Assembly: GCA_029959295.1 (NCBI GenBank)
Contig: JASCOH010000004.1
Location: 165,762-229,761, forward strand
Reading direction: 5' to 3'
Origin: Flavobacteriaceae bacterium PS02334
GTDB lineage: Bacteria; Bacteroidota; Bacteroidia; Flavobacteriales; Flavobacteriaceae
DNA: 64,000 nt
Translations under genes and position numbers: made by a program
Notes under the pieces: model-generated
Databases searched by the model: none
What the model was told of the DNA's origin: nothing
The model's input: only the letters and a program-made list of their open reading frames with translations
Part shown: in pieces, positions 44,049-49,583 of the stretch
Numbering within the stretch: position 1 is the stretch's first letter
Layout: every line of letters starts with the position of its first letter

Positions 44049-46223
44049 CTACCTCCAAAATTTACTATAAAAATTTTCGGTCTGCATTAATTTCTCATGA
44101 TTTCCAAACTCTTTTACTATACCTTCTTCTAAAATATAAATCATATCAGAAATATTTTTTAAAGCTTGCAAACGATGCGAAATAAAGAATATGGCGCATT
44201 CTGATTTTATTTCTTGCAATAAATTTAGAATAAAATTTTCTGTCTTTCTGTCCATTGCCGCCGTAGCTTCATCAAGAATTAAAAATTGTGGTTTTTTATA
44301 TAATACTCTTGCGAAAGCTATGATTTGTCTTTGTCCGCCTGAAAGATTTATCCCTTCTTCTCCTAAAATTGTAGCTAGGCCTTGTGGCAAATCATTTAGA
44401 TATTTATCAAATCCATAAGCTTCTAGAAAAACAATTAAATTTTCAATAGAATCTTCTTTACCAAGCAATATATTATCAACAACGTTGCCATTGAAAATCG
44501 TAATATCTTGGGGAATAACTCCAATTAAATCTCTATAATTTTTTAATTCAATATCAGAAATATTGTGTTTGTTATTTATGAGAATGCTACCATTTTCAAA
44601 ATTATAGAAACGTTGCAAAATTTGGCTTAGTGTACTTTTACCACAGCCACTTTCTCCAACAATTGCTGTTAATTTTCCTTTTTCTATTTTAATATTTAAG
44701 TCGGAAAACAATTCTTTTCTTCCTGCAAATCTGAAAGAAAGATTATTAATTTCAATAGAATCAATTGAATCTAATAAATTTCCTTCTCTAATTTCCTTTT
44801 TAATCGAAGCAAATTCAAACATCCTGTTAAAAGCAATTTTTGCTTCATTAATGGGAATAGAAATCAAAGCTAAATTAGCCACAGAAGGAATCAATGAACC
44901 TGAAATCCCCAATATTGCCATCAATTCTCCTAATTGCATTTGATTATTAAAAACGGAAATCGACGTGTAAATCAAAATTCCAATCAAAAAAACAACACTG
45001 GCTAATCCTGATTGCCATGATAATGCAATATTGATTTTTCCTAAATCAAACATTTTATTTTGAAAACTATTAAAAATCAAATCATTTGTCTTGCTAAAAA
45101 TGGTTTCCAGATTATGATTTTTGATAGTAGAAATTCCCTGAAGGCTTGAAATATAATTGCTTTCATTAAATGCATAACCTTGCATTGATTCTTTTTGAGA
45201 ATTTATAATCCGTTTATTACTTCTGTAAATAATATAGAAATACACTGGCAAGCTTATGGTGGCAATAATTCCGACTTTCCAAGAATATATAAAAAGAAAA
45301 ACTAGGGATATTAAAGTTATTAAAATATCTACAACTAAATTGCCCGCCAGCATTTTTATCACGCGTTGCACTCTTTGCGTATCATTCAGTCGGGCAACCA
45401 ATTCACCAATTTTTCTGGTGTCGAAAAACGGTTTTGGAAGGTGAAGCAACGAACTAAAAAATTGTGAATTGATTCTATTATTAAAATCTTTCGACTGTTT
45501 TATCAAAAAGAATTCCCTTAATGACATAAATCCCACTCTTGCCAAAAGCAATATTCCAAGCAAAGCGATTCCTGTTATCAGTTTGCTAATATTCCTAGAT
45601 GGCAAAATATCATCGATTAATTTCTGTGAAAAAACAGACATCGCCATGCCTAAACCTGCTACAAAAACGCCAAGCAAGACCGAAATCCAAAGCAATTTAT
45701 AATCATCTTGCAGCAAATCAAGAAACCATTTCTTTTGCGAGCTTTTGGTTTCTGTTTCTTTTACAAAATGGCTGTTTGGTTCTAGAGTGAGACAAGATTT
45801 TGAAACCCAAATAGCATCTAAATTTGTAGCTGACATATATTCAACACCCTTTGCCGGATCTCCAATCAAAAACCCTTTTTGGCTATCATATTCATAACAG
45901 ACCATATAATGCTGTAGTTGATTTTCAACAAGCACATGAAGAATCACAGGTTGCTTATGGTCAATTAAAGCCTGAATATCAGCCTCGCAACCCTCTGCAT
46001 CAAAACCTATTTGGTTGGCCGCTTGATAAAGTCCTAAAAGCGTAGTTCCTTCTCGATTGGTTCCACTCAATGCTCTCAAATTTTCTAAAGAATCTGAACC
46101 ACCATACAGCTTAATGATAGATAATAGGCAAGCTACGCCGCAGTCAGATTGATCAAGTTGCAAAGTATGTGACTTCTGAATAGTTTTTAAATTAACCTTT
46201 TCTGAATTTGAATTATCTGCCAT
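44049..46223 (-). CDS. C39-peptidase ABC exporter for a double-glycine leader peptide
   Basis: A 724-residue fused protein. Residues 15-150 are a C39 cysteine peptidase with all three catalytic residues: Cys28 in LDQSDCGVACL, His105 in QHYMVCYEY and Asp122 in LIGDPAKG. Residues about 165-450 hold the membrane domain. The ATPase has Walker A GESGCGKST (523-531), signature LSGGQ (627-631) and Walker B with DEATA (651-655). Such exporters cut a leader after Gly-Gly and pump out the mature peptide. The substrate is probably the 55-residue peptide 2 kb upstream. It overlaps the thioredoxin gene by 11 bases. No HlyD-like adaptor is in the cluster. Confidence 0.93.
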   Translation of the reverse strand: MADNSNSEKVNLKTIQKSHTLQLDQSDCGVACLLSIIKLYGGSDSLENLRALSGTNREGTTLLGLYQAANQIGFDAEGCEADIQALIDHKQPVILHVLVENQLQHYMVCYEYDSQKGFLIGDPAKGVEYMSATNLDAIWVSKSCLTLEPNSHFVKETETKSSQKKWFLDLLQDDYKLLWISVLLGVFVAGLGMAMSVFSQKLIDDILPSRNISKLITGIALLGILLLARVGFMSLREFFLIKQSKDFNNRINSQFFSSLLHLPKPFFDTRKIGELVARLNDTQRVQRVIKMLAGNLVVDILITLISLVFLFIYSWKVGIIATISLPVYFYIIYRSNKRIINSQKESMQGYAFNESNYISSLQGISTIKNHNLETIFSKTNDLIFNSFQNKMFDLGKINIALSWQSGLASVVFLIGILIYTSISVFNNQMQLGELMAILGISGSLIPSVANLALISIPINEAKIAFNRMFEFASIKKEIREGNLLDSIDSIEINNLSFRFAGRKELFSDLNIKIEKGKLTAIVGESGCGKSTLSQILQRFYNFENGSILINNKHNISDIELKNYRDLIGVIPQDITIFNGNVVDNILLGKEDSIENLIVFLEAYGFDKYLNDLPQGLATILGEEGINLSGGQRQIIAFARVLYKKPQFLILDEATAAMDRKTENFILNLLQEIKSECAIFFISHRLQALKNISDMIYILEEGIVKEFGNHEKLMQTENFYSKFWR

Positions 46224-46734
46224 CTAGCTTTTTTAAAATTGTTGATGCCTTCACTTGACCTTTAAATCTTTCGATTAACTTTTGATTTTTATCATACAGA
46301 ATCAAGCTAGGAAGTGACTTGACATCAAAAGTAGTAGCGAAATCAGCTTTGGTATCATGTATAAAATGAATGTTATCATACTTTAAAAGATTGTGTTTTT
46401 GGGCAAAAAATTTGATAGCGCCAGGTTTTTCAAATGAGATGAAAATAATTCGAGTCTCTTTAAATGCTACAATATTTTCTTTAATCAGTGTCGCTTCATT
46501 ATTACAGAACTCGCATTCGCTATTAAAATAAATAAACAATATGGGAGTATTGTTTTTCAAATTTTCATTAGAAAACATATCGCCATTGATGTCCTTATAT
46601 GAAAAATTCGGTATTGTTTTTATATTTTCAGCAACTTCTTTTTTATGATCTATTTTGCTGACAATATTATAACCCATAATACAAAGTAGTCCAATTACCA
46701 GAACTGGGATTGAAATTTTAAAAATCTTTTTCAT
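46213..46734 (-). CDS. Membrane-anchored thioredoxin-like (TlpA/redoxin type) protein
   Basis: A 173-residue protein with one N-terminal transmembrane helix (residues 6-25) and a periplasmic thioredoxin fold. The redox pair is CEFC at 74-77 within IYFNSECEFCNNEATL; the cis-proline loop is in DVKSLPSLILYD. In this cluster it may reduce or form the disulfide of the exported peptide, whose mature part has exactly two Cys. That link is inference from neighbourhood. It overlaps the exporter gene. Confidence 0.87.
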   Translation of the reverse strand: MKKIFKISIPVLVIGLLCIMGYNIVSKIDHKKEVAENIKTIPNFSYKDINGDMFSNENLKNNTPILFIYFNSECEFCNNEATLIKENIVAFKETRIIFISFEKPGAIKFFAQKHNLLKYDNIHFIHDTKADFATTFDVKSLPSLILYDKNQKLIERFKGQVKASTILKKLDGR

Positions 46735-46743
46735 TGAAATAAA

Positions 46744-47376
46744 TTAGCTGTAATTCAAAGTAAAAAACATAATAGTTACCACCCACAGTAATAACGCAGG
46801 CCCATAACTGCTGGCAACAATTTTAAAGCCCTTATCCATATTTGTTTCCGTTTCTTTACCAATTAAATACCCTAAATACAGCCAATACCCTAATTCAAAT
46901 AAATTAAGTGTTTGTAAAGGATAAATATACCAAGGCTCTAAATTTTCATAGCCGATGATATTTAAGGCTGAAAATGGATAAAAGTATTGGACATCTTCTA
47001 ATGTATAATTGATTTGAAAGAAATAAAACCAGATGATTTTAAATAGCGGAACTAATAAAAAAATAAATTCTGCCTTTAAAACTATCTTCCAAATTAGTTT
47101 CAATTTTAAATCCTTATTTGAAAAAAACAAACCTATATAAATGAATGTTGAAATTAAAAAAGTCTTTACCAAAAGCAATATAGCAATAGTAAAATGACCA
47201 ATCCATCCCCATTTTTTTTGAAGTCCAATAAAATTTTCAATTTCTTCTGAAGTAAGTTGTTCCGATAAAGAATTGTAAAAAAGTGTATCAAAGTGCAGAA
47301 AACTTTTTAATAATTCTGAAATTAAAATTAAAGAGATAGTAAGCAAAAAAAACTTGCTGAAAATACTTTTAAACAT
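46744..47376 (-). CDS. Polytopic membrane protein of the peptide-export cluster, unknown function
   Basis: A 210-residue protein with about five hydrophobic helices (residues 8-25, 60-85, 95-118, 150-168, 185-205) and few charged residues. No motif for a known enzyme is visible. It resembles Yip1-like membrane proteins in layout only. It lies nine bases ahead of the thioredoxin gene, 75 bases after the 189-residue gene, and should be part of the same transcript. Possible roles are immunity or assembly of the exporter; neither is shown. Confidence 0.7.
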   Translation of the reverse strand: MFKSIFSKFFLLTISLILISELLKSFLHFDTLFYNSLSEQLTSEEIENFIGLQKKWGWIGHFTIAILLLVKTFLISTFIYIGLFFSNKDLKLKLIWKIVLKAEFIFLLVPLFKIIWFYFFQINYTLEDVQYFYPFSALNIIGYENLEPWYIYPLQTLNLFELGYWLYLGYLIGKETETNMDKGFKIVASSYGPALLLWVVTIMFFTLNYS

Positions 47377-47451
47377 TAGAGTTTATTTTTCTTAGAGTTG
47401 AATCAAGATTTAGCTCAAAATATTGAAGCAATAAAGTGTTACAATGCAAAA

Positions 47452-48021
47452 TTAATTCTTACTTAAATGATTATAGGGTTCAAATATATTATATTCAAAT
47501 AATTCCAACTTATTTTCTGTTTTTAACTCTAACGCTTCTTTTATTTTTAATTCCATCTTGTCCTTTAAATTATACATAATGGTTTTATCAAAATTTCGAA
47601 AATTAATAAGTATCGCATTGTCAATAACTACTATTGTAATTTCTCTTTTATATCGAAAATATGAAATTAAAGTATTTGCAGTATAAGACATTTTAAAAAC
47701 ATTTACATCCTGTTTATACAGCTTTAAAGAATTTTCTAGAGAAATTTCGGCAACTATGCTTTCAGCATCTCTAGCAGATTTATTTATAAAAGTTTCAAAT
47801 GAAATTCTTTTAAGTATTAATTTCGAATAAAAAAGAAAAAAGAAAGAAAAAATAAAAAATGAGCTTATTAGAGACAAAAATCTAATCAAGTCTGACTCAA
47901 CTTTTAATATAACTACAAAAAAAATTGAAATAAAACAAAATAAAATAATAAATAATAAATAAACATCAAAAAACAAAATTGGAAATCGACCTTTTCTAAT
48001 TATATAATCTACCTTTTTCAT
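47452..48021 (-). CDS. Two-helix membrane protein with cytoplasmic domain, unknown function
   Basis: A 189-residue protein with two N-terminal transmembrane helices (about residues 14-38 and 46-70) followed by a soluble part of some 110 residues with alternating strands (ITIVVIDNAILINFRNF). The pattern is like PH-like YcxB-type membrane proteins, but I cannot assign the family. It is the first gene after the peptide precursor, separated from it by a GC-rich hairpin, and so belongs to the export cluster. Immunity or self-protection is one possibility. Confidence 0.7.
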   Translation of the reverse strand: MKKVDYIIRKGRFPILFFDVYLLFIILFCFISIFFVVILKVESDLIRFLSLISSFFIFSFFFLFYSKLILKRISFETFINKSARDAESIVAEISLENSLKLYKQDVNVFKMSYTANTLISYFRYKREITIVVIDNAILINFRNFDKTIMYNLKDKMELKIKEALELKTENKLELFEYNIFEPYNHLSKN

Positions 48022-48041
48022 ATAAACATTTTATAATAATA

Positions 48042-48066
48042 ACGGGGGAAGAAGACCTTCCCCCGC
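48042..48066 (-). promoter_or_regulatory. GC-rich hairpin between the peptide gene and the export genes
   Basis: The minus strand reads GCGGGGGAAGG, TCTT, CTTCCCCCG: nine to ten G-C-rich pairs in otherwise AT-rich DNA, ten bases after the peptide stop. It is followed by TTATTATTATA, not a clean T run. It could protect or partly terminate the peptide message so the precursor is made in excess over the transport proteins. Confidence 0.65.
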
Positions 48067-48075
48067 TAAATTAAA

Positions 48076-48243
48076 TTAACAACTTAATGCCCAAGCAGCA
48101 GCACTTGCAACAAGTGCTGGAGCAGCAGGCCCCCCTGCAACTACTGCACCTGCAACGGCAAAAATAGATCCTACTAAACACCATTCTCTTGAACCCCATC
48201 CCCCATTTACGCCTTCCATCTGAACTAATTCCATTTTTTTCAT
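48076..48243 (-). CDS. Double-glycine-leader peptide precursor (candidate bacteriocin or signal peptide)
   Basis: A 55-codon gene below the usual ORF length cutoff. Translation begins MKKMELVQMEGVNGG, a class II-type leader ending in Gly14-Gly15. The mature 40-residue peptide starts WGSREWCLVGSIF, contains an AVAGAVVAGG-type Ala/Gly-rich hydrophobic stretch, and ends AAAWALSC. It has two Cys (residues 22 and 55), so one disulfide can close it. Small, Gly/Ala-rich and hydrophobic is what pore-forming class II bacteriocins look like. The adjacent C39 exporter has the peptidase needed to cut after Gly-Gly. The ATG has TTATTATT before it and no strong Shine-Dalgarno, as is normal in this phylum. 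Antimicrobial activity is not shown. Confidence 0.88.
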   Translation of the reverse strand: MKKMELVQMEGVNGGWGSREWCLVGSIFAVAGAVVAGGPAAPALVASAAAWALSC

Positions 48244-48270
48244 AATAATAAAAGTTTAAAGTTTAAGCCA

Positions 48271-48278
48271 CAATAGTA
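48271..48278 (-). promoter_or_regulatory. Possible -7 element of the peptide gene
   Basis: The minus strand reads TACTATTG, one base off TAnnTTTG, 28 bases before the peptide ATG. The expected -33 is poor, so activation may be needed. The 17-bp palindrome lies just upstream of it. Confidence 0.4.
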
Positions 48279-48310
48279 AAAACAATTCTTCAAAAAATTG
48301 AAAACTCCAG

Positions 48311-48327
48311 CGCATAAATTATGCGCA
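48311..48327. promoter_or_regulatory. 17-bp palindrome between divergent peptide and XRE genes, likely operator
   Basis: GCGCATAA, A, TTATGCGC: exact eight-base arms around one base. It overlaps the expected -33 area of the XRE gene promoter (its -7 is TAAATTTG at 48342-48349) and lies upstream of the peptide promoter. An XRE-type dimer could bind here and control both genes. Confidence 0.6.
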
Positions 48328-48341
48328 CTATTTTTAAAAAT

Positions 48342-48349
48342 AAATTTGC
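48342..48349 (+). promoter_or_regulatory. -7 element of the XRE regulator gene
   Basis: TAAATTTG, exact TAnnTTTG. The start of transcription would be near 48355, giving a leader of about 105 bases that contains two nested inverted repeats. Confidence 0.6.
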
Positions 48350-48389
48350 TTCGTGTTATTATTTTTATCAAATTGCAACCAGCCAAAAG

Positions 48390-48462
48390 ATACCACTGAG
48401 GCTAAAAAAAAATTCAACATAAATTTTATGTTGAATAATAATATTTTTATAAGCAGTGGTAT
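48390..48462. promoter_or_regulatory. Two nested inverted repeats in the XRE gene leader
   Basis: Outer arms ATACCACTG (48390-48398) and CAGTGGTAT (48454-48462) are exact complements; inner arms ATTCAACATAA (48412-48422) and TTATGTTGAAT (48426-48436) are exact complements with a three-base loop. The outer 3' arm includes the first two bases of the XRE ATG, so folding would hide the start codon. Confidence 0.7.
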
Positions 48463-48661
48463 GAAAAAAGAGGCATTAGAAAAAATCAGAATCGCAAGAA
48501 TCATCAAAGGATATTCCCAAGATTATTTAGCCCGCGAGCTAAAAATAACCCAAAGCCAATACTCTCGGCTTGAAAGCGGCAAATACAAACTCGAAAGTTC
48601 CCGACTGTCGGTCATTTGTGAAATTTTAGAGTTGCAATCCAACAGCTTGTTGGTCAATTAA
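48461..48661 (+). CDS. Small XRE-family helix-turn-helix regulator
   Basis: A 66-residue protein from the ATG at 48461 (MKKEALEKIRIARIIKGYSQ). The helix-turn-helix is YSQDYLARELKITQSQYSRLESGKY in two parts, with the family's final SLSVICEILEL-type helix (LSVICEILELQSNSLLVN). The frame continues upstream but without XRE match, and a folded leader and promoter lie there. It is divergent from the peptide precursor, separated by a perfect palindrome, and is the likely regulator of the cluster. Confidence 0.9.
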   Translation: MKKEALEKIRIARIIKGYSQDYLARELKITQSQYSRLESGKYKLESSRLSVICEILELQSNSLLVN

Positions 48662-48668
48662 TTTCACA

Positions 48669-48833
48669 ATGAAAAAAACTACCCAATTATATATTCTAAG
48701 TCTTCTGCTCATTGCAGTAGCTATATTTCTATCAATAGAATATCAAAACGCTGGAAGATTGCAATCCATTGCTGGCATTTTAATCACATTTGGCTTTATA
48801 GCAAACATAATCGCCTTTGGATTAAGAAAATAA
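48669..48833 (+). CDS. 54-residue two-helix membrane protein
   Basis: A short gene, seven bases after the XRE stop. The product has two hydrophobic helices (about residues 6-22 and 32-50) joined by a short charged turn (IEYQNAGRLQ) and ends GLRK. Small two-helix proteins beside bacteriocin genes are often immunity proteins, but this one lies on the regulator side and could also be unrelated. No family is recognised. Confidence 0.6.
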   Translation: MKKTTQLYILSLLLIAVAIFLSIEYQNAGRLQSIAGILITFGFIANIIAFGLRK

Positions 48834-48866: not shown

Positions 48867-49583
48867 ATGGCATCAACATCAGAAGTAGGAAATGCAAAAA
48901 CAATTGCAAACCTAAATTTATTAAACACCCACATCATTGACTTAGGCAGCATTTATAATCCTTCAAACCGCAAACTTGCCCTGTCAAAAACTGTTTATAC
49001 AACCGCATCACAACAACAAACAGCTGTCAACAACTTGCTCGCCCCTTACACATTAGCAGTCGACAATCGAGAATTAATTTTCAAACCTTTAAACAGAGAA
49101 CTGACAAAATTGCGCAAAGCTTTCAAAGCAACAGAAGGAGTAACACTAGCCCAACTCGAAGACTTTATGTCTATTTTCAGAAAATTAAAAGGAGTAAAGA
49201 AAACCAACAATAGGCCATCCACAAATCCAGAAGAAGAACAAGCCAATCACTCCACATCACAATTGAGCTTCGACCAGCGTACAGATAATCTAGAACTTTT
49301 AATTACTTTTCTTAAAAACATACCGTCTTTTGATCCAAATGAAGAAGAATACAAAGAAACCTATAAAAACAAAAAAGCACAGATGCTAGCCTCAACACAA
49401 GCAGTAGCAAATGCTTATATACCGTTAAATACTGCTAGAAGTTTAAGAAATGCAACAGTATACAATGCAGAAGATAATCTAGTAGACATTGCCAACAGAG
49501 CAAAAGATTACATTTTTAGTATTCTTGACACAGATACTGCACAATACAAAGCGATTGCAAAAATCAAATTCAAAAAAAGATAG
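48867..49583 (+). CDS. Conserved-looking cytoplasmic protein of unknown function, helical
   Basis: A 238-residue, Ala/Asn/Thr-rich, probably all-helical protein with no signal peptide or membrane helix. It begins MASTSEVGNAKTIANLNLL and has two similar-looking halves, each with a LNTA/LLAPYTLAV-type helical segment, which suggests an internal duplication. I vaguely associate the SEVGxAK start with uncharacterised Bacteroidetes proteins, but this is unverified. A 21-bp periodic array follows directly. No function is proposed. Confidence 0.65.
   Translation: MASTSEVGNAKTIANLNLLNTHIIDLGSIYNPSNRKLALSKTVYTTASQQQTAVNNLLAPYTLAVDNRELIFKPLNRELTKLRKAFKATEGVTLAQLEDFMSIFRKLKGVKKTNNRPSTNPEEEQANHSTSQLSFDQRTDNLELLITFLKNIPSFDPNEEEYKETYKNKKAQMLASTQAVANAYIPLNTARSLRNATVYNAEDNLVDIANRAKDYIFSILDTDTAQYKAIAKIKFKKR

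Follow-up and report, generated by a model that had tools for sequence, protein, structure and literature searches.

A candidate bacteroidetocin-type bacteriocin locus with a putatively peptide-matched variable gene in a Flavobacteriaceae genome

Genes of the locus

Analysis of a 64,000-nt stretch of the genome of Flavobacteriaceae bacterium PS02334 (contig JASCOH010000004.1; hereafter the window) uncovered five adjacent minus-strand genes that probably constitute a bacteriocin locus. They encode a short peptide with a double-glycine (GG) leader, two membrane proteins, a thioredoxin-like protein, and a C39-type exporter. A preliminary description of this DNA had listed the same parts, namely a 55-codon GG peptide, a C39 exporter with Cys28, His105, and Asp122, a CEFC thioredoxin-like protein, and two membrane proteins of no known family, and each was confirmed by open reading frame (ORF) calls, motifs, and Pfam and NCBIfam searches. 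Its statement that everything lies on a single strand holds for the five genes, but not for a helix-turn-helix (HTH) gene and a 54-aa ORF, which also fall within positions 44049–48833 and are on the plus strand.

48076–48243, minus strand: precursor peptide gene, 55 aa (ORF call; leader type common to relatives)
48199–48243, minus strand: leader of the precursor peptide, 15 aa, GG at its end (ORF and leaders of relatives)
48079–48198, minus strand: core of the precursor peptide, 40 aa, 2 Cys, Gly/Ala-rich (ORF)
47452–48021, minus strand: 189-aa membrane protein in a variable slot, candidate cognate immunity protein (ORF, hydropathy, and slot genes that track the cores in relatives)
46744–47376, minus strand: 210-aa five-helix protein, conserved part of the cassette (alignment A1, neighbours, and structure model)
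46213–46734, minus strand: membrane-anchored thioredoxin-like thiol oxidoreductase, CEFC (Pfam AhpC-TSA, 8.4e-12)
44049–46223, minus strand: C39 peptidase/ABC exporter, 724 aa (Pfam and NCBIfam; catalytic and ABC motifs)

Because the intergenic gaps from the peptide gene to the exporter gene measure 54, 75, 9, and -11 nt, the five genes, all of them full length, likely form one operon. Its GC content (29.5%, against 35.5% for the window) suggests acquisition from elsewhere.

The precursor consists of the leader MKKMELVQMEGVNGG and a 40-aa core that begins with WGSREWC, contains 2 Cys, and balances one Arg against one Glu; the calculated monoisotopic mass of the core is 3841.94 reduced and 3839.93 oxidised. 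When both strands of the 64-kb window were passed through a filter for peptide-like ORFs (GG-type leader, 2 or more Cys), which was tuned after the sequences of relatives had been seen, two ORFs were retained, one of them the 55-aa peptide. The peptide, the 189-aa protein, and the 210-aa protein match no Pfam or NCBIfam family above the curated cut-off.

The exporter is the sole C39 match found in its own 4.59 Mb genome (Pfam ABC_membrane 7.5e-35, ABC_tran 1.7e-29, Peptidase_C39 2.3e-29), and C28, H105, D122, the QSDCG box, Walker A, LSGG, and Walker B are intact. Across 13 aligned exporters, the C39 Cys and Asp motifs are present in all, and the His motif matches the search pattern in 10, with HYVI or HYII visible in the other three. 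The thioredoxin-like protein has one predicted N-terminal transmembrane (TM) helix followed by CEFC at residue 74, and a CxxC motif occupies residue 74 or 75 in 13/13 aligned sequences, that of the window included. It also matches the ResA model at 2e-13, which is below that model's cut-off.

The cassette in relatives and its five-helix protein

The closest characterised arrangement is the bacteroidetocin region (Coyne 2019, PMC6671954), in which a five-TM protein, a GG-leader Cys peptide, a thiol oxidoreductase, and a C39 exporter are sufficient in E. coli. Deletion of either the TM gene or the oxidoreductase gene attenuates toxin activity, and neither gives immunity (PMC6671954).

A scan of genome contigs with the exporter returned 17 loci, comprising 13 long C39 homologues with 63–74% identity (L002–L014), a fragment (L015), and remote ABC proteins (L016–L018). 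Among the 13, the thioredoxin gene is always present and the 210-aa protein is encoded upstream in 12, the remaining locus (L009) being cut by a contig end. Eleven of these 12 also carry an upstream Cys peptide whose leader ends in GG or GE, while L012 is cut short; most of these leaders follow the pattern MKKLELNQMENLxGG. A profile of the 210-aa protein (A1) found matches in 28 of 395 Bacteroidota genomes and in 33 of 398 genomes of the same genus, from which 31 and 30 regions, respectively, were taken. Together with the window, L002–L014, and one plasmid locus, these made up the 76 regions examined.

The 210-aa (TM) protein was present in 72 of the 76 regions, 68 of them distinct, and no ORF for it was detected in L009, L076, L139, and L154. 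It is accompanied by both the thioredoxin-like protein and the C39 exporter in 51/68 distinct loci, and in these full loci a peptide that has a GG-type leader and two or more Cys lies upstream in 43/51, or upstream or nearby in 45/51. Because 12 of the 68 loci had been found through C39 itself, a fairer figure comes from the 55 distinct loci that the TM protein alone retrieved, a set that excludes the window and those 12: the thioredoxin and exporter genes adjoin in 38/55, and of these 38, 31 have the peptide upstream and 33 have it nearby. Over 25 loci, with one peptide taken per locus, median pairwise identity is 80% for the leader, 29% for the core, and 57% for the TM protein. This contrast of conserved leader and divergent core, the synteny, and the existence of a tested system of the same content support the earlier proposal of a candidate bacteriocin whose GG precursor would be matured by the exporter and whose disulfide would be handled by the thioredoxin-like protein.

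The structure model of the 210-aa protein (pLDDT 91.4) consists of five long helices at residues 5–26, 57–85, 92–119, 159–175, and 180–209. L079, which comes from a different family within the same class, has the published order of TM protein, peptide (GG leader, 4 Cys), thioredoxin-like protein, and C39 exporter, and the A1 profile reaches its TM protein as well, at 3.7e-10. Since neighbours, size, and helix count agree, the 210-aa protein is likely the counterpart of the bacteroidetocin TM protein, a likeness of architecture. The preliminary description had left both membrane proteins without a role, with room for new immunity or export parts, a view that the present analysis does not support.

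Several further observations concern the family of the 210-aa protein. Relatives in family f8 (L060, L063, L066, L067, L069, L072, L073, and L074) have neither a thioredoxin-like protein nor a C39 exporter nearby, and a protein of ~990 aa adjoins the relative in L060, L066, and L069. In L060, L063, and L067 the Pfam family Yip1 is touched below its cut-off, so the bacteriocin TM protein may derive from a housekeeping membrane family. Two other loci (L062:7611-7778 and L065:8175-8342) encode nearly the same peptide, with a leader ending in GA in L062 and GG in L065 and a core beginning ASQCAYNIAVSASVGG, next to a relative of the 210-aa protein and an ORF of ~454 aa that resembles the start of a C39 domain; these possibly represent a divergent branch. 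Within some cassettes, a DUF6625-type protein follows the TM or thioredoxin-like gene (scanned in L147, 5e-59; L145 and L131 look alike), and the L131 cassette additionally encodes a family 2 glycosyltransferase (1.4e-22), so some of the peptides might be glycosylated.

The variable slot and the peptide core

Between the peptide gene and the 210-aa gene lies a slot whose content differs from locus to locus. It is occupied by membrane proteins of 50–70 aa, membrane proteins of 200 aa, ABC-type sets (L003, L008, and L054–L057), a TatA-like protein, or, in the window, the 189-aa protein. A total of 46 loci with both a peptide and a slot ORF were used to ask how slot and core are distributed. Wherever two loci have cores with 60% identity or more over a stretch of no fewer than 28 aa, their slot genes are related too (11/11 pairs; shuffle mean 0.27; 0/5000 shuffles as high), although these pairs are not independent and fall into five groups: L006/L007/L127/L153 contribute six, L068/L070/L071 two, and L132/L138, L134/L143, and L142/L147 one each. 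The L068/L070/L071 group shares a 730-aa ABC-like ORF, which was rejected as an immunity candidate, and the group was for that reason set aside. The slot gene remains common to 9/9 pairs in the four other groups (shuffle mean 0.23; 0/5000), compared with 2/352 control pairs of equal 210-aa identity (53–80%) that have no such core match. Composition correction and low-complexity masking left both figures unchanged. The slot gene is common to only 4/11 pairs with a 210-aa identity of 75% or more, which argues against a slot that simply tracks the cassette backbone. In L153, which has two peptides, a separate slot gene comes after each, and the first of these slot genes is TatA-like.

This co-inheritance indicates that the slot gene is probably an immunity gene and, by extension from the relatives, that the 189-aa protein is probably the cognate immunity protein of the window peptide. 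The preliminary description had allowed for such a role, and because the slot follows the core it is now the best reading of this protein. Hydropathy predicts two TM helices and a C-terminal soluble part for it, and its structure model is poor. Two distant relatives were found outside loci of this kind (2.5e-5 and 3.0e-4 in the genome search; 9e-8 and 3e-8 in single comparisons). One distant relative is in L095:3500-15500, where small plus-strand ORFs, most of them unrelated, follow one another in what resembles an immunity-gene array. The TatA-like slot gene (L006:6376-6534, Pfam TatA_B_E 9.2e-16; L007:6266-6442; also L126, L127, and L153) stands beside cores of the type GCALTGLAAGVAAGLNPLVGG in L006, L007, L127, and L153, whereas no such core was caught in L126; a TatA-like protein in an immunity or helper role would be unusual. 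Taken together, a conserved leader, a fast-changing core, and a membrane gene matched to the core would be the trace expected from an arms race between bacteriocin and immunity.

Assignment of the locus, alternatives, and proposed mechanism

The window locus has the gene content of the four-gene region that suffices in E. coli, with one further gene, and we interpret it as a bacteroidetocin-type (unmodified, class II-like) bacteriocin locus, with a probability of about 0.78. Like the bacteroidetocins, it combines a 15-aa GG leader, a short core with at least 2 Cys, an oxidoreductase (encoded in most bacteroidetocin loci), a putative counterpart of the five-TM protein, and a C39 exporter, and it has no HlyD-type or outer-membrane gene. 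Bacteroidetocins A–D and their relatives have been proposed as class IIf (PMC6671954). Further bacteroidetocins have leaders of 15–16 aa and at least 2 Cys (PMC6671954), mature peptides are 42–53 residues long, and the target is BamA (Matano 2021, PMC8546649). By comparison, the 40-aa window core is slightly short, and its single Arg and single Glu differ from the net charge of +2 or +6 of bacteroidetocins A/B. Gene order differs as well, with TM protein, peptide, oxidoreductase, and transporter in the bacteroidetocins, and peptide, slot, TM protein, oxidoreductase, and transporter in the window. The 189-aa gene is extra, in that the A/B regions have no counterpart and no immunity gene, and their producers inhibit themselves (PMC6671954). 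With two instead of four Cys in the core and this additional gene, bacteroidetocin A/B in the narrow sense is ruled out. The locus has a layout with precedent in gut Bacteroides, as a variant with a cognate slot, and is not a new kind of system.

Other bacteriocin classes share part of this content. Class IIa (pediocin-like) loci of Gram-positives also combine a GG leader (18–24 aa, against 15 aa here), a C39 exporter, a nearby immunity gene, and a disulfide in the core, but the window locus adds the thioredoxin-like and five-helix proteins, lies in a Gram-negative host, and, with a core that starts WGSREWC, has no YGNGVXC motif, which rules out a class IIa identity. Class II microcins (colicin V type) pair a C39 exporter with a GG leader in a Gram-negative host, and their loci encode an HlyD-type adaptor and use TolC. 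The window locus differs in having no adaptor, and Pfam scans of eight gene products detected no lipoyl/HlyD domain; type I (colicin V-type) export was accordingly rejected for the operon. That the locus lacks an adaptor and an outer-membrane channel had been pointed out in the preliminary description; the absence stands, but it does not set the locus apart, as the known four-gene region likewise has neither.

A number of findings weigh against the bacteroidetocin-type assignment and its immunity component. The window core has 2 Cys in 40 aa, while bacteroidetocins A/B have 4 Cys in 42 aa, and the likeness of the 210-aa protein to the bacteroidetocin TM protein is drawn from architecture and from L079. 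Eight of the 51 full loci have no upstream peptide that passes the filter: L079 and L152 have GG-leader Cys peptides shut out by its composition limits, L077 and L081 have a peptide elsewhere nearby, the sequence ends close upstream of the TM gene in L012, L058, and L064, and L145 retains the TM, thioredoxin-like, and C39 genes next to a disrupted peptide frame. Loss of the peptide beside a retained exporter in relatives was what the preliminary description had named as a refutation; most full loci keep the peptide, and L145 is one in which its frame is lost. L051 has a TM gene with neither thioredoxin nor C39 nearby, and all that L144 retains is a TM gene interrupted by a stop codon. The pairing of core and slot weakens at lower core identity (12/14 at 55%, 12/20 at 50%, and 14/63 at 35%), and the supporting pairs come from few groups. 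Finally, the window peptide was found in one of 199 same-genus genomes, its own, so its pairing with the 189-aa gene is without a second example.

The flanking features include a candidate regulator.

48461–48661, plus strand: divergent Xre-type HTH protein, 66 aa from ATG, candidate regulator (Pfam HTH_19 7.8e-10, HTH_3 2.9e-9)
48412–48436, no strand: perfect inverted repeat, 12 nt with a 1-nt centre, possible operator (repeat search)

The repeat lies directly upstream of the HTH gene, a position from which it could possibly serve as an operator. By eye, divergent ORFs resembling the HTH gene lie upstream of the peptide in 6/12 loci. A neighbouring 238-aa protein (48867–49583, beginning MASTSEVGNAK) resembles one that adjoins the L013 cassette (L013:4858-5517, beginning MASTSEVGHAK), so the window and L013 loci may share an insertion neighbourhood.

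The HTH gene next to the peptide gene would also suit a regulatory circuit in which the peptide, once exported, acts as a signal or in biofilm formation and not as an antibacterial, as with the GG-motif secreted peptides reported to have a biofilm role in a cyanobacterium (PMC4997328). We regard this as improbable: cores diverge far more than leaders and slot genes switch with them, a pattern that toxin/immunity pairs fit better than a signal with a conserved receptor, and the gene set matches that of a tested toxin, with one gene added. Slightly less probable again is a decaying or silent remnant of no current function. The GC content of the operon and the remnants among relatives (L051, L144, and L145) would agree with decay, but none of the five window genes is truncated and the catalytic residues are intact.

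A rival that deserves more weight, although we still consider it unlikely, concerns the slot gene alone, which might be a peptide-specific maturation or export helper inherited with the peptide. Co-inheritance by itself would look the same for immunity and for dedicated processing, the slot genes include TatA-like ones (L006) and ABC transporter-like sets (L003, L008, and L054–L057), and bacteroidetocins A/B manage without an immunity gene. ABC sets are also known as immunity devices, however. Many of the slot genes encode small membrane proteins that are unrelated to one another and have pairing to the core as their common trait, and conserved export duties are already held by the TM protein, the thioredoxin-like protein, and the C39 exporter.

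If the locus is of the bacteroidetocin type, the 55-aa precursor would be made and cut after Gly-Gly by the C39 domain, and the exporter would move the 40-aa core across the inner membrane, as family knowledge and the intact residues suggest. The anchored thioredoxin-like protein may then form or reshuffle the single possible disulfide outside the cytoplasm. By architecture, the 210-aa protein would be an accessory of production or export, as the bacteroidetocin TM protein is, and the 189-aa protein would provide self-protection matched to the peptide, as judged from its counterparts in relatives. Control of expression by the divergent HTH protein is a guess. Exit through the outer membrane might use a channel encoded elsewhere or cell lysis; the genome contains 30 TolC-family (OEP) domain matches and 13 lipoyl-domain matches, 6 of these over the cut-off, outside the locus, so a borrowed route is possible. 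For the bacteroidetocins, too, the published account leaves lysis as an option (PMC6671954).

What is new here is the statistical support for slot genes matched to their peptides, which offers a candidate for the self-protection missing in the bacteroidetocin A/B regions. More broadly, we give even odds to the view that the bacteroidetocin machinery serves the Flavobacteriia as a modular antagonism platform, in which a fixed export core would be combined with exchangeable peptide/immunity pairs and many unrelated small membrane immunity proteins (TatA-like and 189-aa proteins among them). The five-helix protein would possibly come from the Yip1 superfamily, and gut A/B would be a branch in which immunity was lost or had never been acquired. 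The question of export in Bacteroidota is focused by these results on one conserved five-helix protein. If the slot does encode immunity, its genes would be candidates for the self-protection that tested bacteroidetocin producers, which inhibit themselves, lack, and the 46 loci with a peptide and a slot ORF would provide many testable toxin/immunity pairs.

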